NCBI RefSeq assembly: GCF_024213555.1
Contig: NZ_JANAVO010000029.1
Coordinates: 1-34,072, forward strand
DNA length: 34,072 nt
Reading direction: 5' to 3'
Source: Allokutzneria sp. A3M-2-11 16
GTDB lineage: Bacteria > Actinomycetota > Actinomycetes > Mycobacteriales > Pseudonocardiaceae
In this document: positions 11,576 through 23,626 of the stretch, one piece after another
Layout: every line of letters starts with the position of its first letter
How positions within the stretch are numbered: position 1 is the stretch's first letter
Program-made: the position numbers and the translations under genes
The notes under the pieces: generated by a model
Seen by the model: only the letters and a program-made list of their open reading frames with translations
What the model was told of the DNA's origin: nothing
The model's database searches: none

Positions 11576-11611
11576 CCTGGGTGGCGTCGTCACGGTCGCT
11601 GATCACCCAGG
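11576..11611 (-). promoter_or_regulatory. Putative Shine-Dalgarno-sequestering stem of folD
   Basis: In the minus-strand RNA, CCTGGGTG (11604-11611, the 3' end of the ZTP aptamer) is exactly complementary to CACCCAGG (11576-11583), which overlaps the folD ribosome binding site AGGGAG. Ligand-bound aptamer would hold CCTGGG and free the site; ligand-free RNA could hide it. This translational switch is an inference from pairing. Confidence 0.65.
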
Positions 11612-11687
11612 CGCGCGGCTCGGACCGGTTCTCCCCGGTCGGGCCGCTCCCCGGTGGTGCCCCACCTCCAGCGCCAGTCACGGCCCG
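11603..11687 (-). ncRNA. ZTP riboswitch (pfl motif) controlling folD
   Basis: Read on the minus strand, the conserved blocks appear in order: a 5' P1 strand CGGGCC, GTGACTGGCG, a GGTGG/CCACC P2 hairpin, CGGGGAGC, a 3' P1 strand GGCCCG, a variable hairpin, and the terminal CCGCGCGCCTGGG. This is the pfl/ZTP consensus, which senses the purine intermediate ZMP/ZTP when 10-formyl-THF is short. Genes under this switch commonly include folD, purH and glyA, so the assignment matches its neighbour. Confidence 0.92.
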
Positions 11688-11744
11688 GGGACAGCCTACG
11701 CGACGGCTTGACCTCAACTTTGGTGTAGGTGTGAGGCTGTGGTC

Positions 11745-19108: not shown

Positions 19109-19122
19109 TACAGGCGTTTTTG

Positions 19123-19208
19123 CCCCGAATGAGTCATTGAGGTACTTGAAGGCCCTGAATGAGTCATTCGGGGAGTTGAGCGCCCCCAATGACTCATTCA
19201 GGGCGCTC
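19123..19208. repeat. Three TGASTCA palindromes phased at 30 bp
   Basis: Three palindromes (19123-19142, 19153-19173, 19183-19203) share an AATGASTCATT core flanked by C and G runs. Their central bases lie at 19133, 19163 and 19193, exactly 30 bp apart. The third is nested in a larger hairpin GAGCGCCC (19178-19185) to GGGCGCTC (19201-19208). The array lies just downstream of the tRNA operon and upstream of the DJ-1/PfpI promoter, so it may end tRNA transcription. Confidence 0.85.
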
Positions 19209-19241
19209 CAGTGCACCAATCGCGACATTGGCGTGACGGGG

Positions 19242-19317
19242 TGGCTGTCCGTCGAGGGGTCGAACCTCGGTCTCCGCGTTCAGAGCGCGGCGTCCATGCC
19301 TGCTGGACCAACGGACA
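19242..19317 (-). tRNA. tRNA-Gln(CTG)
   Basis: A complete cloverleaf on the minus strand: acceptor TGTCCGT/ACGGACA, D-stem GTCC/GGAC, anticodon stem CCGCG/CGCGG with loop CTCTGAA (anticodon CTG), T-arm CGAGG-TTCGACC-CCTCG, discriminator G and an encoded CCA. The U1-A72 pair and G73 are typical glutamine identity features. It is the last gene of the attenuated array and reads CAG, a codon present in the leader peptide. Confidence 0.92.
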
Positions 19318-19333
19318 TCGTGGGTGGTGGGCG

Positions 19334-19407
19334 TGCCCCCGCCAGGATTCGAACCTGGACCGGCCGCGTCCTGAACGCGGTGCCTCTGCCGATTGGGCTA
19401 CGGGGGC
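19334..19407 (-). tRNA. Noncanonical tRNA-Leu(CAG) with short variable arm
   Basis: All four stems pair: acceptor GCCCCCG/CGGGGGC, D-stem GCC/GGC, anticodon stem CCGCG/CGCGG with loop TTCAGGA, T-arm CCAGG-TTCGAAT-CCTGG, discriminator A, no encoded CCA. The anticodon CAG reads the Leu codon CTG, and G36-G37 fits TrmD methylation. The variable region is only 5 bases (CCGGT), whereas bacterial tRNA-Leu is class II with a long arm. The true charging identity is therefore open. Confidence 0.85.
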
Positions 19408-19408
19408 G

Positions 19409-19482
19409 TGCGGTTCCGGGGAGTCGAACCCCGACTGGGCTGGCCCTCAACCAGGTGCCTCTGCCGATTGGGCTAGAACCGC
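19409..19482 (-). tRNA. Noncanonical tRNA-Leu(GAG) with short variable arm
   Basis: Acceptor GCGGTTC/GAACCGC, D-arm identical to the CAG tRNA (TAGCCCAATCGGCAGAGGCA), anticodon loop TTGAGGG with anticodon GAG (reads CTC), T-arm CGGGG-TTCGACT-CCCCG, discriminator A. The first anticodon-stem pair is a C-C mismatch and the variable region is 5 bases. Only one base separates it from the CAG tRNA, so end maturation must be precise. It starts 13 bases after the attenuator U tract. Confidence 0.83.
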
Positions 19483-19495
19483 TTGTGGCGCAAGC

Positions 19496-19522
19496 AAAAA
19501 GCCGCCCCGATCGGGACGGCTT
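19496..19522 (-). terminator. Attenuator terminator before the tRNA array
   Basis: On the minus strand AAGCCGTCCC-GATC-GGGGCGGCTT forms a 10-bp stem (19499-19522) with a GATC loop followed by TTTTT (19496-19500). It lies between the leader peptide and the first tRNA. Its 5' arm, together with the preceding GGA, can instead pair with an upstream segment of the leader ORF. Confidence 0.92.
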
Positions 19523-19560
19523 CCACGGGTGCTGACGAAGGTCAGGTCGAGGAGGCCGCC
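19515..19560 (-). promoter_or_regulatory. Antiterminator pairing of the Leu/Gln attenuator
   Basis: In the RNA, GGCGGCCTCC (19551-19560, within leader codons 14-17) can pair with GGAAGCCGTC (19515-19524) at 9 of 10 positions including one G-U. That pairing uses the terminator's 5' strand, so both cannot form. A ribosome held in the Leu run would leave the upstream strand free; a ribosome running to the stop would cover it. Confidence 0.8.
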
Positions 19561-19601
19561 GGGAGCAGCAGCTGGAGCGACAGGAGTTGAGTGGTGTTCA
19601 T
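19542..19601 (-). CDS. Leu/Gln-rich 19-residue leader peptide of the tRNA array
   Basis: MNTTQLLSLQLLLPAASST, with GAAGGAGG (19607-19614) 5 bases before the ATG. Leu codons are CTC at residues 6, 9 and 13 and CTG at 7, 11 and 12; Gln is CAA at residue 5 and CAG at residue 10. These are the codons read by the GAG, CAG and CTG tRNAs encoded downstream, apart from CAA. The peptide is followed by a terminator and its alternative pairing, the layout of amino acid operon attenuators. Confidence 0.88.
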   Translation of the reverse strand: MNTTQLLSLQLLLPAASST

Positions 19602-19632
19602 GACTGCCTCCTTCGCTCGGTGGTGTGTGCCC

Positions 19633-19662
19633 ATCATCTCCGCGCCCCGCGCTGGACGGCAA
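19633..19662 (-). promoter_or_regulatory. Promoter of the Leu/Gln leader and tRNA array
   Basis: TTGCCG (19657-19662) and GATGAT (19633-19638) with an 18-base spacer on the minus strand. Transcription would start near 19626, giving a 25-base untranslated region that carries the leader ribosome binding site. The -35 element overlaps that of the opposing trp leader promoter. Confidence 0.65.
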
Positions 19663-19689: not shown

Positions 19690-19731
19690 ATGCTTCGCAC
19701 CGCGTGCCTCGGTTGGTGGCGCTCCACTTAG
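19690..19731 (+). CDS. Trp leader peptide, 13 residues
   Basis: MLRTACLGWWRST with tandem TGG Trp codons at residues 9 and 10. The next bases form CGCTCC/GGAGCG (19720-19736), a pause hairpin across the stop. GAGCGGC (19732-19738) can instead pair with GCCGTTC inside the terminator, giving the antiterminator when a ribosome waits at the Trp codons. This is the arrangement described for the auxiliary TrpRS gene of S. coelicolor. Confidence 0.9.
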   Translation: MLRTACLGWWRST

Positions 19732-19754: not shown

Positions 19755-19783
19755 AAGGGCCGTTCGGATGAGCGGCCCTTTTT
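19755..19783 (+). terminator. Attenuator terminator before trpS
   Basis: AAGGGCCGTT-CGGATG-AGCGGCCCTT forms a 10-bp stem with one G-T pair (19755-19780), followed by a T run to 19783. It lies between the Trp leader and the trpS ribosome binding site. Its distal arm repeats the GAGCGGC of the leader's second strand. Confidence 0.92.
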
Positions 19784-19838: not shown

Positions 19839-20858
19839 ATGACCAGCGCGCTACTGGAACAGTCCGTCGTCGAGGCCCCCGCCACCTTCCGCGTGCTCAC
19901 CGGGGACCGGCCGACCGGGCGGCTGCACCTCGGGCACTACTTCGGCACGCTGCACAACAGGATTCGCTTGCAGCGCCTCGGGGTCGAGGTGTTCCTGATC
20001 ATCGCCGACTACCAGGTGCTGACCGATCGGGACATCGCCGAACGACTACCGGAGCACGTCGAGGACCTGGTGCTGGACTACCTCGCGGTCGGCTTCGACC
20101 CCGGGCGCGGCACCGTGTTCGCGCACAGCGCGGTGCCCGCGCTCAACCAGCTGCTGCTGCCCTTCCTCAGCCTCGTCTCGGTCGCGGAGCTGGGGCGCAA
20201 CCCCACCGTCAAGGACGAGATCGCGCACTCGCGGCAGGCGGCGGTGAGCGGGCTGATGTTCACCTACCCCGCGCACCAGGCCGCGGACATCCTGTTCTGC
20301 AAGGCCAATCTCGTTCCGGTCGGCCAGGACCAGCTGCCGCACCTGGAGCTGACCAGGACCATCGCCCGCCGGTTCAACGACCGCTACGGCAAGGTCTTCC
20401 CGGAGCCCGCGCCGATGCTGTCCGCCGCACCGCTGCTGCTGGGCACGGACGGCGCGAAGATGAGCAAGAGCCGCGGCAACGCGATCTCCTTGTCCGCCAC
20501 CGCCGATGAGACCGCGCGGCTGATCCGGGGCGCGAAGACCGACGCCGACCGGCACATCACCTACGAGCCGGAGCGTCGCCCCGAGGTCTCCAGCCTCGTG
20601 CTTTTGGCTTCACTGTGCCAAGATCGCGATCCGCACGAGGTCGCGGCGGAGATCGGCGGCGGTGGCGCGGCGGTGCTGAAGCGAACTGTGACCTCCGCCG
20701 TGAACGACTTCTTGGCACCGATCCGAGCTCGTCGGGCCGAGCTGGCGCGAGATCGCGGTTACCTGCGGCAGGTGCTGCGGGTCGGCAACGCTCGCGCCAA
20801 CGAGATCGCGGACACGACGCTGACGGAGGTGCGGCAGGCGATGCGCAGCGTGTACTGA
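19839..20858 (+). CDS. trpS: Auxiliary, indolmycin-resistant-type tryptophanyl-tRNA synthetase
   Basis: A 339-residue class I TrpRS that charges tRNA-Trp in the cytoplasm. The HIGH-type motif is LGHY (31-34) and KMSKS is at 207-211; YPAHQAADIL and VPVGQDQ are TrpRS signatures. CAGGAG precedes the ATG. Two active-site positions differ from indolmycin-sensitive enzymes: Gln9 of B. stearothermophilus TrpRS is Arg24 here, and His43 is Gln59. From memory, changes at His43 give indolmycin resistance. Together with the Trp-Trp attenuator, this suggests an inducible second enzyme rather than the housekeeping copy. It converges on the NACHT gene with only 2 bases between stops. Confidence 0.95.
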   Translation: MTSALLEQSVVEAPATFRVLTGDRPTGRLHLGHYFGTLHNRIRLQRLGVEVFLIIADYQVLTDRDIAERLPEHVEDLVLDYLAVGFDPGRGTVFAHSAVPALNQLLLPFLSLVSVAELGRNPTVKDEIAHSRQAAVSGLMFTYPAHQAADILFCKANLVPVGQDQLPHLELTRTIARRFNDRYGKVFPEPAPMLSAAPLLLGTDGAKMSKSRGNAISLSATADETARLIRGAKTDADRHITYEPERRPEVSSLVLLASLCQDRDPHEVAAEIGGGGAAVLKRTVTSAVNDFLAPIRARRAELARDRGYLRQVLRVGNARANEIADTTLTEVRQAMRSVY

Positions 20859-20860
20859 AG

Positions 20861-23626
20861 TCAGTCGCGCGCGAGGAAGATTGTTTCGGTCGGGATCGCC
20901 GCGAACATCGCGCGTCGCTCCAGGAGGGTGATCCCGGCCGCGATCTCCGGCAGTCGCAGGCACATCGCGGTGAAGCGGAGCGTCGACGCGGCGGTGAGCG
21001 GCAGCTCGCGGTGGAGCATCGGCGACGCGACCGCCTGGAAGCGGTGTGCGACCTGGCGTTCCCAGTCGCTTTCGCGGGTCCTGGCGCTCTCGGCGAGCCG
21101 ATCGGCCAGGACGTCGAGCGAGACGACGGTGTCGTGGACCGGGGAGAGGTTGAGGAAGTCGTGGCGGAACGCGGTAAACCAGGTCTCCGGCTTCTTCGAC
21201 CGGAACGCCGCCGCCAGCGCGGAATCCAGCACCCGGCCGGTGTCATTGGGGCGCACCAGGTCGGTCAGCTTCTGCACGAGCTTGTGCATCGCGTGCCGCT
21301 CCTGCCGCGCGAACTCCCTGAGCTGGGAGAACCATTCGCGGTCGATGGGGACGTCCTGGGCGTCGTTCGCCTGCTGGCGCACCACCTTGCGCTCAGCCGC
21401 GCGGATCGACTCCTGGGCATCGCGGAACGAGGCCAGCGCTCCGTGGGCGGTGGCGATGTCGTCGTCGAGGCCGAGCGGAATCGGCAGCGCGTCGACCAGC
21501 GCGCTGTCCAGGTCGCGTGGGTACTGGAGCTGCTTCGCCCAGGCGGCACAGCGTTCCAGGACCTTGTCGTTTTCGAGCTGTGAGTAATGGTTCACCTGCT
21601 GGCGAACGTGCTCGGCGGCGGTCTCGGCGACCCTGCGCAGCATCAGGAACCTCAGCATCGGTTCGAGCCGGTCGAGATCGTTGTCGATGTGCTGCCGGAG
21701 GGTCGCGGCGTCAAGGGCATTCGGATGCTTGGCTGCGGGCGGCAGCCACAGGCCATCGCCGGTCCACACGGTGTGCTCGGCGGGAACAAGGCGCTGTGCG
21801 GCGGTCATCTCGTCGGCTGTGGGCAGCCGGTAGCCCGACTCGTCCTCGGTGATGGTGTTGGTCCACCGCACGAAGGCCGCCGCGTCGCTGGCGCGCACGC
21901 CTGCGACCGGATCGGTCCAGCCGCCGCCGTCCGGCGCGGGGTTTCCGGTGTCGGTCAGGAACAACTCGTAAACGCTCGCGCTGATCGGGCGGGCGCACAC
22001 CGGGCCGACGCGGTCCCGCAGGTGGCGGATGAGTTGGACGGTTGTGCGCAGCCGTTGACGCTCAGGAGAGTCGTCCTCGCCGCTGAGGAGATCCTCCAGG
22101 CTCGCGCGGAGATCGGGGTCGAGGTCGCTGCTCTGCTCGGCGCAGTCGAAGGCCAGTGACAGGGCGTTGACGGTCCCAGACTGCAGGCAGGCCGCGACGA
22201 TGGGGTCGGCGTCGGACTGGGCGGCGTAGAGGAGTGACGTCTCGCGCCACCACAGATCGTCCACAGTGGACGTCAAGACGTCGACAAGGCTTTTGTCGCG
22301 GATGTGCGCCGCGGCGAGGGATTCCTGGAAGGTCAGGTGGGCGAAGCAGAACAGGTCGCTCTCCCGCTCGACGACCAAGCCGAAGGAACAGACCTCGGTG
22401 AGGAAAGCATCCGCGGTGACATCGGTGGCCATGCGGCTCAGCGCGTCCTTGAGCGTGGACAGGACTTGCTTGCGCGGAAAGTCCCGAACCCGCTCGCGCA
22501 TCATGGTGAACGCGAGCCCGCGCAGCAGGGTTTCCTTGCGGTCGCTGCGCAGGTCGGAGCTCAGCTTCTTGGCCTCCTGCCGTCGCCAGAGCATGACCTG
22601 GCAGATCTCGTTGTACAGCTCGGCGCGACTGCCGGGGAGCGCGCCCCGGTAGCGGTGCACGTTCGCGATCATGGTGAGCAGCAACGGGTTCGCGGTCAGC
22701 TCGGCGAGGCCGGGAGCGTGGTGCAACCGGCGGAGCAGGTCGTCGGCGAGGCCCTGGTGGTCGGGCTGGTGCCGCTCGACGGCGCGGTACCAGCCGCGTA
22801 CGAAAAGGGTTACCTGCTCCTCGGTGAAACTGCGCACCTGCACCACGACCGCGCCCTCGACGCTCGCGCTGCGGAAGCCACGTGGCCGCGAGGTGATCAC
22901 GAAGTCGTTCTTCGAGTACTGCCGCGCCTGGCTCTCCACCCAGTCCGCGACCTTGCGCCGGTCCTCCTGGCGGGACACCTCGTCGAGGCCGTCGAGCAGG
23001 ACGACGCAGTCACCGTCGCGCAGACGCTGCTCGAACCAGCCCGGGGGCTCGACGGTGCGGTAGTGACCGAGGGAGGTCCGGAGCAGCGCGGGTACGGAGA
23101 TGTCGTGGTTCCCGACGATCGCGGACACGTGGTCGCGCAGGTACAGCAGGATTGGCACGGTGCGCCGCCGTCCACGAGGAGAGCGGCTGATGCTGCGCGC
23201 GGTGTGCCGGAGCAGGGTGGTCTTGCCGCTTCCGGGAGATCCGGTCACCGCGAGCACGACCGCCTCCTCACGGTCGAGGAAGTGGCCGATGGAGTGGCGG
23301 TGGGTGACGTCGGTGGGCAGGTCGGCGAGCACGCTCTCGGACACCTGGTGCGGCGCCCGGTAAGCGAGGCTGACGTCGACGAAGACCTCGTCCAGTTCCG
23401 GCGTGTAGTAGCCGACGGTCGCGAGTCCCTTGAGGTCGACGAACCGCAGGCTGTCCAGGACGAACTGGCGGTAGCGCCGACCGAAGCGGGTGACCTTCCG
23501 CCGCAGGATCTGGTCGGTGTGCTCGACGAGCCGCGCGCGCCACCGCTTCCACAGCTCCTTCGGTATGAACAGCAGAGCCACGCCGCCGGTCAGGGCACCG
23601 ATGAACAACCAGCTCCAGAGATCCAC
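20861..23626 (-). CDS. NACHT-family STAND NTPase with FGE-like C-terminal domain
   Basis: A 921-residue protein. Residues 4-22 form an N-terminal membrane helix. The NACHT ATPase has Walker A TGSPGSGKT (128-136), Walker B VVLLDGLDEV (208-217) and sensor FVITSRPRGF (242-251), then a winged-helix/helical region with FAHLTFQESLAAA (428-440). Residues ~545-628 resemble a formylglycine-generating-enzyme (SUMF1-like) domain (DPVAGVRASDAAAFVRW; GYRLPTADEM). The last ~290 residues are helical and unrecognised. Bacterial NACHT proteins include anti-phage sensors; membrane anchoring suits an effector that acts on the envelope. The GTG start has no clear ribosome binding site. The defence role is inferred from the family. 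Confidence 0.88.
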   Translation of the reverse strand: MDLWSWLFIGALTGGVALLFIPKELWKRWRARLVEHTDQILRRKVTRFGRRYRQFVLDSLRFVDLKGLATVGYYTPELDEVFVDVSLAYRAPHQVSESVLADLPTDVTHRHSIGHFLDREEAVVLAVTGSPGSGKTTLLRHTARSISRSPRGRRRTVPILLYLRDHVSAIVGNHDISVPALLRTSLGHYRTVEPPGWFEQRLRDGDCVVLLDGLDEVSRQEDRRKVADWVESQARQYSKNDFVITSRPRGFRSASVEGAVVVQVRSFTEEQVTLFVRGWYRAVERHQPDHQGLADDLLRRLHHAPGLAELTANPLLLTMIANVHRYRGALPGSRAELYNEICQVMLWRRQEAKKLSSDLRSDRKETLLRGLAFTMMRERVRDFPRKQVLSTLKDALSRMATDVTADAFLTEVCSFGLVVERESDLFCFAHLTFQESLAAAHIRDKSLVDVLTSTVDDLWWRETSLLYAAQSDADPIVAACLQSGTVNALSLAFDCAEQSSDLDPDLRASLEDLLSGEDDSPERQRLRTTVQLIRHLRDRVGPVCARPISASVYELFLTDTGNPAPDGGGWTDPVAGVRASDAAAFVRWTNTITEDESGYRLPTADEMTAAQRLVPAEHTVWTGDGLWLPPAAKHPNALDAATLRQHIDNDLDRLEPMLRFLMLRRVAETAAEHVRQQVNHYSQLENDKVLERCAAWAKQLQYPRDLDSALVDALPIPLGLDDDIATAHGALASFRDAQESIRAAERKVVRQQANDAQDVPIDREWFSQLREFARQERHAMHKLVQKLTDLVRPNDTGRVLDSALAAAFRSKKPETWFTAFRHDFLNLSPVHDTVVSLDVLADRLAESARTRESDWERQVAHRFQAVASPMLHRELPLTAASTLRFTAMCLRLPEIAAGITLLERRAMFAAIPTETIFLARD

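Follow-up and report, generated by a model that had tools for sequence, protein, structure and literature searches.

The window analysed here is a stretch of 34,072 nucleotides (nt) from the actinomycete Allokutzneria sp. A3M-2-11 16 (contig NZ_JANAVO010000029.1, positions 1 to 34,072). On its minus strand, it carries a short leader open reading frame (ORF) rich in leucine and glutamine codons, followed by a hairpin resembling an intrinsic terminator and by three tRNA genes that read codons of the leader. A sequence-only reading of this DNA had proposed that the leader attenuates transcription of the very tRNA genes it matches. Here, we describe the locus, compare it with related loci across its family, the Pseudonocardiaceae, and discuss how such leaders might work and what the tRNA genes behind them may be for.

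Anatomy of the leader and its tRNA genes

In the direction of transcription, the locus comprises the following features.

19657..19662, minus strand: -35-like element TTGCCG, resembling the family promoter motif TTGACG-17/18-GATGAT; absent from the list of a strict consensus scan
19633..19638, minus strand: -10-like element GATGAT, 31 nt 5′ of the ATG, in the spacing TTGCCG-18-GATGAT
19607..19613, minus strand: ribosome binding site (RBS) AAGGAGG, read from the sequence
19542..19601, minus strand: leader ORF MNTTQLLSLQLLLPAASST, 19 codons, with the control codons CAA CTC CTG (TCG) CTC CAG CTG CTG CTC
19551..19560, minus strand: antiterminator 5′ arm GGCGGCCTCC, within the 3′ end of the leader ORF
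19515..19524, minus strand: antiterminator 3′ arm GGAAGCCGTC, doubling as the terminator 5′ arm
19496..19524, minus strand: intrinsic terminator, with stem 19524-19513 / 19508-19497 and T run 19500-19496
19408..19482, minus strand: tRNA-Leu(GAG), 75 nt, short variable arm (ARAGORN; Rfam tRNA, 45 bits)
19333..19407, minus strand: tRNA-Leu(CAG), 75 nt, short variable arm (ARAGORN; Rfam tRNA, 57.2 bits)
19242..19317, minus strand: tRNA-Gln(CTG), anticodon loop CTCTGAA (housekeeping: TTCTGGC) (ARAGORN; Rfam tRNA, 56 bits)

Most of this anatomy had been described in the sequence-only reading. The strong RBS it named is the AAGGAGG at 19613-19607, and its count of three CTC, three CTG and one CAG codon in a 19-residue ORF is exact, with one CAA to be added. 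The terminator hairpin (19524-19497) folds with -20.4 kcal/mol (z -3.15) and the antiterminator (19560-19551 with 19524-19515) with -22.3 kcal/mol (z -3.10), each beating 199 of 200 dinucleotide shuffles. Because both structures use 19524-19515, they are mutually exclusive, as had been claimed. The last control codon of the leader is the seventh before its stop.

The anticodons that had been said to read the leader codons (GAG, CAG and CTG) are also those given by ARAGORN, which calls Leu-GAG, Leu-CAG and Gln-CTG. Elsewhere, the 8.81 Mb host genome (G000) encodes one long-armed tRNA-Leu(CAG), two long-armed tRNA-Leu(GAG) and tRNA-Gln for both CTG and TTG; the three genes in the window are additional copies rather than housekeeping genes. 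Together, they read seven of the 18 codons that follow the start codon (P = 2.7e-4 against leaders whose arrays have neither Leu nor Gln tRNAs). By itself, this match is modest, and the weight lies in the statistics of the family.

Some housekeeping tRNA-Leu genes of the host are also short: those for TAA, CAA and TAG (L053, L056, L060) measure 75-77 nt and have no long variable arm of the usual kind, whereas the CAG and GAG genes measure 84-86 nt. The idea that the short-armed (class I) tRNA-Leu genes of the window encode mischarged tRNAs was set aside on account of these 75-77 nt genes. Because the housekeeping Leu-TAG gene has the same short body, the tRNA-Leu genes in the window need no foreign identity.

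A family of leaders in front of tRNA arrays

Other unusual tRNA arrays in the host and its relatives are preceded, where a terminator is present, by the same succession of leader, hairpin near the stop codon, terminator and array. A terminator pattern derived from related arrays, allowing up to two mismatches, was run on 390 genomes of the Pseudonocardiaceae and found 145 sites in 105 of them. The same pattern reversed had no match in these 390 genomes, which speaks against chance hits. As the terminator in the window itself escapes the pattern and diverged terminators are missed, 145 is a lower bound. Within 500 nt 3′ of the terminator, 138 of the 145 sites have tRNA genes, with 1 to 21 tRNAs per array in the 2.5 kb examined; the other seven sites were excluded from the match statistics below. 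Seven loci had been inspected before testing (L003, L004, L005, L007, L048, L069 and L071), five of which (L003, L007, L048, L069 and L071) are among the 145 sites.

Leader ORFs are present at 144 of the 145 sites. Of 627 places picked at random from these loci, 75 have one, so that chance does not account for the ORFs; with a good RBS required, the counts are 137 of 145 and 5 of 627. In all 138 tRNA-bearing sites, the leader ends 17-32 nt 5′ of the terminator (17-28 nt in 136 of them). The promoter motif TTGACG-17/18-GATGAT scores at least 9/12 in 100 of 139 upstream regions and in 17 of 139 shuffled ones, where the motif was taken from some of the tested loci and the null was a single mononucleotide shuffle per region.

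Matches to the pattern come almost entirely from the Pseudonocardiaceae. Among 84,980 species, each represented by one genome, the exact pattern occurs at 30 loci, 29 of which are titled as Pseudonocardiaceae genera and one as Rhodococcus rhodnii. When 397 genomes sampled across the order were searched, 18 had a match, all from this family (0 of 318 outside it). A BLAST search across the family with the leader in the window found little outside the genus: 28 of the 390 genomes had matches, and these were mere fragments of 22-62 nt. Even a looser pattern matched no viral contig, and a viral origin was dismissed for that reason; compared with plasmids and phages, the large array L204 gave only small, tRNA-sized matches. 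The locus in the window belongs to a large and apparently undescribed family.

Several smaller observations concern individual members. The leaders of several large arrays (L146, L195, L205) have an N-terminus like MTNMRERGTQR in common. In genus g16, six sites (L166, L172, L174, L187, L199, L209) combine a lone tRNA-Glu(TTC) with a short leader ending like GMEEKHGS; L181 and L221 resemble them, and ARAGORN calls their tRNA Arg-acg. At L194 and L216, two of the sites without a recognised tRNA, the leader contains cysteine codons (CDELCPLC) and might precede a degenerate tRNA-Cys. In the host, a two-tRNA cluster (L061, contig C13; Glu-CTC and Phe-GAA) shows no leader or terminator evident by eye in the stretch seen.

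Leader codons match the tRNAs of their own array

The match between leaders and arrays was measured as the fraction of leader codons read by the anticodons of the leader's own array under standard wobble rules, with arrays shuffled among leaders as the null. Over the 138 sites, this fraction is 0.264, compared with 0.161 after shuffling (z 17.7; reached in 0 of 2000 shuffles). Reduced to 101 clusters of dissimilar leaders, the values are 0.269 and 0.162 (z 16.3; 0 of 2000). Seen from the tRNA side, 420 of 457 array anticodons find a readable codon in the leader core, compared with 58.4% when shuffled. When leaders are exchanged within a genome, which takes kinship and codon usage out of the comparison, the own leader scores higher than the swapped one in 30 of 31 genomes (0.271 versus 0.143), the sample being the genomes with at least two usable pattern sites, with three genus loci added. 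At homologous loci, where the sequence-only reading had raised the prospect of mismatched codons and anticodons, the 138 leader-array pairs, taken as a set, instead agree much better than chance allows, both in frame and at the codon level.

Individual codons follow the same trend. A Tyr codon is found in all 18 leaders whose array has a tRNA-Tyr and in 12 of 83 others; TGG occurs in 20 of 21 leaders with a matching tRNA (30 of 80 others) and CTG in 27 of 28 (43 of 73 others). For some arrays, the match is visible by eye, as in the Arg-only array L125 (leader MDTTRRRRSGSPCSPP), the two-Leu array L132 (leader MTDVRQCELLLLLGCADSPP) and the Arg plus Cys array L152 (leader MTNTRRCCSRSQGSPP).

The signal resides in the frame of the ORF, with z 16.1 in frame and z 0.3 and 0.2 in the other two sense frames. 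This bears on the possibility that tRNAs bind the leader RNA directly at codon-like triplets, with no translation involved. T-box riboswitches are terminator/antiterminator switches of this kind, which answer to the state of a tRNA by binding it directly. Leader triplets complementary to the array anticodons, upstream of a terminator and antiterminator, would suit such a switch. However, the match is found in a single frame, that of an ORF bounded by a start and a stop codon, most leaders have several matching codons rather than one specifier, and an Rfam search found no T-box in the window, no other known cis-RNA for the leader region and no T-box in six other array loci scanned. In contrast to a T-box, the ORF proposed here would be read in frame by ribosomes, and we regard a T-box-like switch as extremely improbable.

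Alternatively, the ORF could encode a small protein under selection for its own sequence, such as a membrane peptide rich in leucine, with the terminator merely insulating the tRNA genes. The middle of the peptide in the window is hydrophobic, and many leaders begin like MTNMRERG. Still, the composition of the leaders tracks the tRNA content of the arrays, synonymous codons included, and covariation with adjacent tRNA genes is not what a conserved protein would show; this explanation, too, is very improbable.

A third alternative is ordinary amino-acid attenuation, in which the leaders would sense starvation for leucine, glutamine and other amino acids and the tRNA genes would be incidental targets. 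Leucine leaders precede leuS and leuA in Streptomyces (PMC8079986), and the match between leaders and arrays is likewise strong at the level of amino acids (z 15.1). Yet when the amino acid is held fixed, codon choice still favours the isoacceptors of the array, with 897 of 1157 codons array-readable and 845.1 expected (z 6.3). Moreover, many different amino acids are represented in the leader of a large array, such as L204 with its 21 tRNAs, and extra tRNA would presumably not relieve starvation. We consider amino-acid attenuation unlikely.

Covariation within the genus

In both other genomes of the genus that were examined (G001 and G002), the locus lies beside the same tryptophanyl-tRNA synthetase (TrpRS) gene as in the window. 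G002 has kept all three tRNAs, behind the leader MNTAQLLSPQQLPPAASPS. The locus of G001 has no tRNA-Gln and only a stub of the Leu-GAG gene; its leader MNIKHLLSLVLLPSAASST, read by eye, has no Gln codons while retaining the Leu codons, RBS, stop codon, antiterminator and terminator. A relative of the tRNA-Gln in the window is found in another array of G001 (L071), whose leader does have Gln codons. Comparison of homologous loci for covariation between leader codons and anticodons had been suggested in the sequence-only reading, and such covariation is seen across the three genomes of the genus.

Position effect and proposed mechanism

Counting back from the stop, there is no excess of matching codons in the last six positions; it sets in at the seventh and continues towards the start. 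These last six codons are the part of the leader that pairs with the terminator arm. A match-free end is the geometry of a working attenuator, because stalling within these codons would leave the arm covered by the ribosome itself. Together with the within-genome swap and the frame specificity, the position effect also opposes codon usage or kinship as the source of the match. Complementarity of at least 6 nt between the leader tail and the terminator arm is found in 88 of the 101 clusters, compared with 25% after shuffling. The first pair of the upper terminator stem is kept in 91 of 101 clusters by way of A-T, G-C, G-T, T-A and C-G pairs, where the pattern itself limits one side.

The leader is very probably a ribosome-mediated transcription attenuator that controls a set of reserve tRNA genes and senses a shortage of those same tRNAs. 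Ribosomes translating the leader freely would reach the stop codon and cover the antiterminator arm, so that the terminator would form and the tRNAs would remain unmade. If the tRNAs reading CUC, CUG and CAG were cleaved, uncharged or scarce, a ribosome would stall at least seven codons before the stop. This would leave the antiterminator arm free to pair with the terminator 5′ arm, and the tRNA array would be transcribed. The response would be matched to the missing tRNAs, because leaders in the Pseudonocardiaceae, as a rule, list the codons of their own array. The match in about 100 related arrays indicates that the spare tRNAs are probably made only when ribosomes run short of them. The sequences themselves show the anatomy, the match with its frame, codon-level preference and position effect, and the conservation, whereas transcription of these leaders, stalling on them and readthrough are what we infer. 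The attenuation of a self-matched tRNA array that had been proposed for this one locus gains support from these comparisons and can be widened to a family.

Several observations weigh against this model. For the leader in the window, both promoter and terminator are missing from the output of the strict consensus scan. As a consequence, the promoter that the sequence-only reading had named holds only as a resemblance of TTGCCG-18-GATGAT to the family motif; the terminator it had named is supported by its folding energy, and the scan probably missed it because G-U pairs extend the stem into the T run. No recognised tRNA lies within 500 nt of seven of the 145 sites (L148, L194, L216, L223, L225, L228 and L257). 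Three of the 101 clusters have no matched core codon (L139, L147, L250), and the small arrays L135, L178, L181 and L191 have one matched codon only. For Gly-tcc (codons in 9 of 16 versus 35 of 85 leaders), as for Glu-ctc and both Pro anticodons, enrichment is small or not significant. The match to isoacceptors can be loose, with GAA 13 and GAG 15 in the leaders of arrays with Glu-ctc only and CAG 12 and CAA 4 in those of arrays with Gln-ttg only. Among the antisense frames (z -0.8, 3.4 and 0.0), one is well above zero. Finally, a minimum-free-energy antiterminator forms in all 101 clusters and also in 77% of shuffled tails; because this folding test is weak, we used the length of complementarity to assess the antiterminator.

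Neighbouring genes

The tRNA leader shares its intergenic region with a divergent attenuator of the usual kind, which precedes an extra synthetase gene.

19690..19731, plus strand: divergent Trp leader MLRTACLGWWRST, a neighbouring attenuator of the usual kind
19755..19780, plus strand: Trp-leader terminator, found in the strict scan
19839..20858, plus strand: extra tryptophanyl-tRNA synthetase (Pfam W/Y synthetase family; TrpRS by our reading)

A leader with two tryptophan residues (WW) is visible by eye in both genus relatives, and the host genome has three matches to the TrpRS in the window. An auxiliary TrpRS of Streptomyces was reportedly described by Vecchione and Sello in 2010. The TrpRS gene is adjoined by a gene for a large NACHT NTPase (20864-23626, minus strand); NACHT NTPases of this type are often linked to defence. 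Between the tRNA-Gln and a DJ-1/PfpI gene, at 19122-19211, a 30-nt repeat built around GAATGAGTCATTC occurs three times and shows inverted symmetry, and G002 has a stretch that, by eye, is similar but diverged. At 11598-11691 (minus strand), the window has a match to the ZMP/ZTP riboswitch above the gathering score.

Relation to known systems

In actinomycetes, ribosome-mediated attenuators precede leuS, leuA, trpE, trpS, alaS and thrS (PMC8079986). The leaders described here resemble them in having a short ORF with control codons, alternative hairpins and, as in several of those cases, a terminator. Unlike those attenuators, they appear to regulate tRNA genes rather than enzymes, and they list codons for several tRNAs and show a bias among the synonymous ones.

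Extra tRNA sets are known from other bacteria. The trn operon of Anabaena encodes 26 tRNAs and is silent during normal growth under the repressor TrcR, until translational stress induces it (PMC10272220). The Pseudonocardiaceae arrays share with it the extra tRNA set and, as we infer, the induction by translational stress. Whereas the Anabaena operon has a DNA-binding repressor acting in trans, each array here would have its own codon-matched switch in cis; the part of the Anabaena paper considered has no word that starts with leader or attenuat. Mycobacterial chromosomes, plasmids and phages, too, carry units of densely clustered extra tRNA genes, for which a role in anti-defence has been proposed (PMC5966550, PMC12803027), and the parts of these two papers considered contain no words beginning with attenuat, leader, terminator or promoter. 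By eye, no comparable leader or terminator was seen in the plasmid and phage arrays L302, L304 and L307, in the 400 nt visible before the first tRNA; for L303 and L305, the start of the array lies outside the stretch read. In the literature searched, mostly titles and opening lines of abstracts with few subscription journals, we found no description of leader-controlled or attenuated tRNA genes or arrays.

What the arrays may be for

The tRNAs encoded in the arrays often differ from their housekeeping counterparts next to the anticodon. Counting all sites, orthologues included, the anticodon loop differs from that of the housekeeping copy in the host in 412 of 581 array tRNAs, mostly at positions 32, 37 and 38. 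Among control genes, 6 of 20 differ, all of them Leu-caa (CTCAAAA to TTCAAAA, position 32) and none at 37 or 38; a control locus of two genes (L081) was removed because it is itself an array, and with it 7 of 22 differ. Among housekeeping-type genes, taken from 30 genomes of the family, the Arg-ACG loop is CTACGGA in 29 of 29 and the Leu-CAG loop TTCAGGT in 30 of 30; among the array genes of all sites, the loops are CTACGAA in 61 of 70 and CTCAGAA in 22 of 31. Some other array tRNAs mostly keep the housekeeping loop, for example Pro-TGG, with 4 of 35 changed, and Thr-CGT, with 1 of 12 changed.

In phage tRNAs, changes in the anticodon loop have been proposed as an escape from host tRNases (PMC10264068). 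The arrays are similar in being extra copies changed next to the anticodon; unlike the phage tRNAs, they reside in bacterial genomes, their expression would be conditional and their resistance is putative. The tRNase VapC-mt11 cuts tRNA-Gln(CUG) and tRNA-Leu(CAG) in vivo and requires GG before the cut (PMC6459853). Its targets are two of the three isoacceptors in the window, where the Gln loop CTCTGAA is without GG and both Leu copies keep it. The host genome has 12 PIN-domain matches, which speak of opportunity and not of function. Taken together, the changed loops suggest reserves against tRNA-cleaving enzymes, and a reserve against tRNA damage is plausible. To the use named in the sequence-only reading, spare tRNAs that counter anticodon nucleases or synthetase inhibitors, these loops lend only indirect support.

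The attenuators could also be real and the reserve serve other ends, with altered tRNAs made for translation under antibiotic stress, for codon supply in secondary metabolism or for deliberate misreading. Such uses are a serious possibility, to which we give rather less than an even chance. They would fit the induction of the 26-tRNA operon of Anabaena by ribosome-targeting antibiotics (PMC10272220) and the short arms of the tRNA-Leu genes in the window, whose housekeeping GAG and CAG counterparts are long-armed. Set against this, the housekeeping Leu-TAG gene has a short body too, and the changes cluster beside the anticodon (32, 37, 38), as proposed for the phage tRNAs that escape tRNases (PMC10264068).

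Returning to a reserve against tRNA loss, the trigger would most likely be depletion of or damage to housekeeping tRNAs, with the array copies altered to survive it; for damage as such, the chances are about even. Stated in full, the Pseudonocardiaceae may possess a modular, inducible system of tRNA replacement, in which the codons of each leader inventory its array and a damage-resistant set would be switched on once any tRNA in that inventory is lost, whether cleaved or inhibited. We consider this complete picture about equally likely to be right or wrong.

Textbook attenuators govern the enzymes that supply amino acids. In these arrays, such a device appears to act on tRNA genes themselves, and the leader names the tRNAs behind it. 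This offers a direct handle on what purpose extra tRNA genes serve when they are clustered, be it in bacteria or in mobile elements. Each leader predicts the tRNA shortage that its array answers, and every such prediction can be tested with a reporter. If the replacement system is real, it would be a means of defence or counter-defence by which bacteria detect damage to their tRNAs via stalled ribosomes, and the leaders would be a readable record of the tRNAs that soil bacteria tend to lose in nature.
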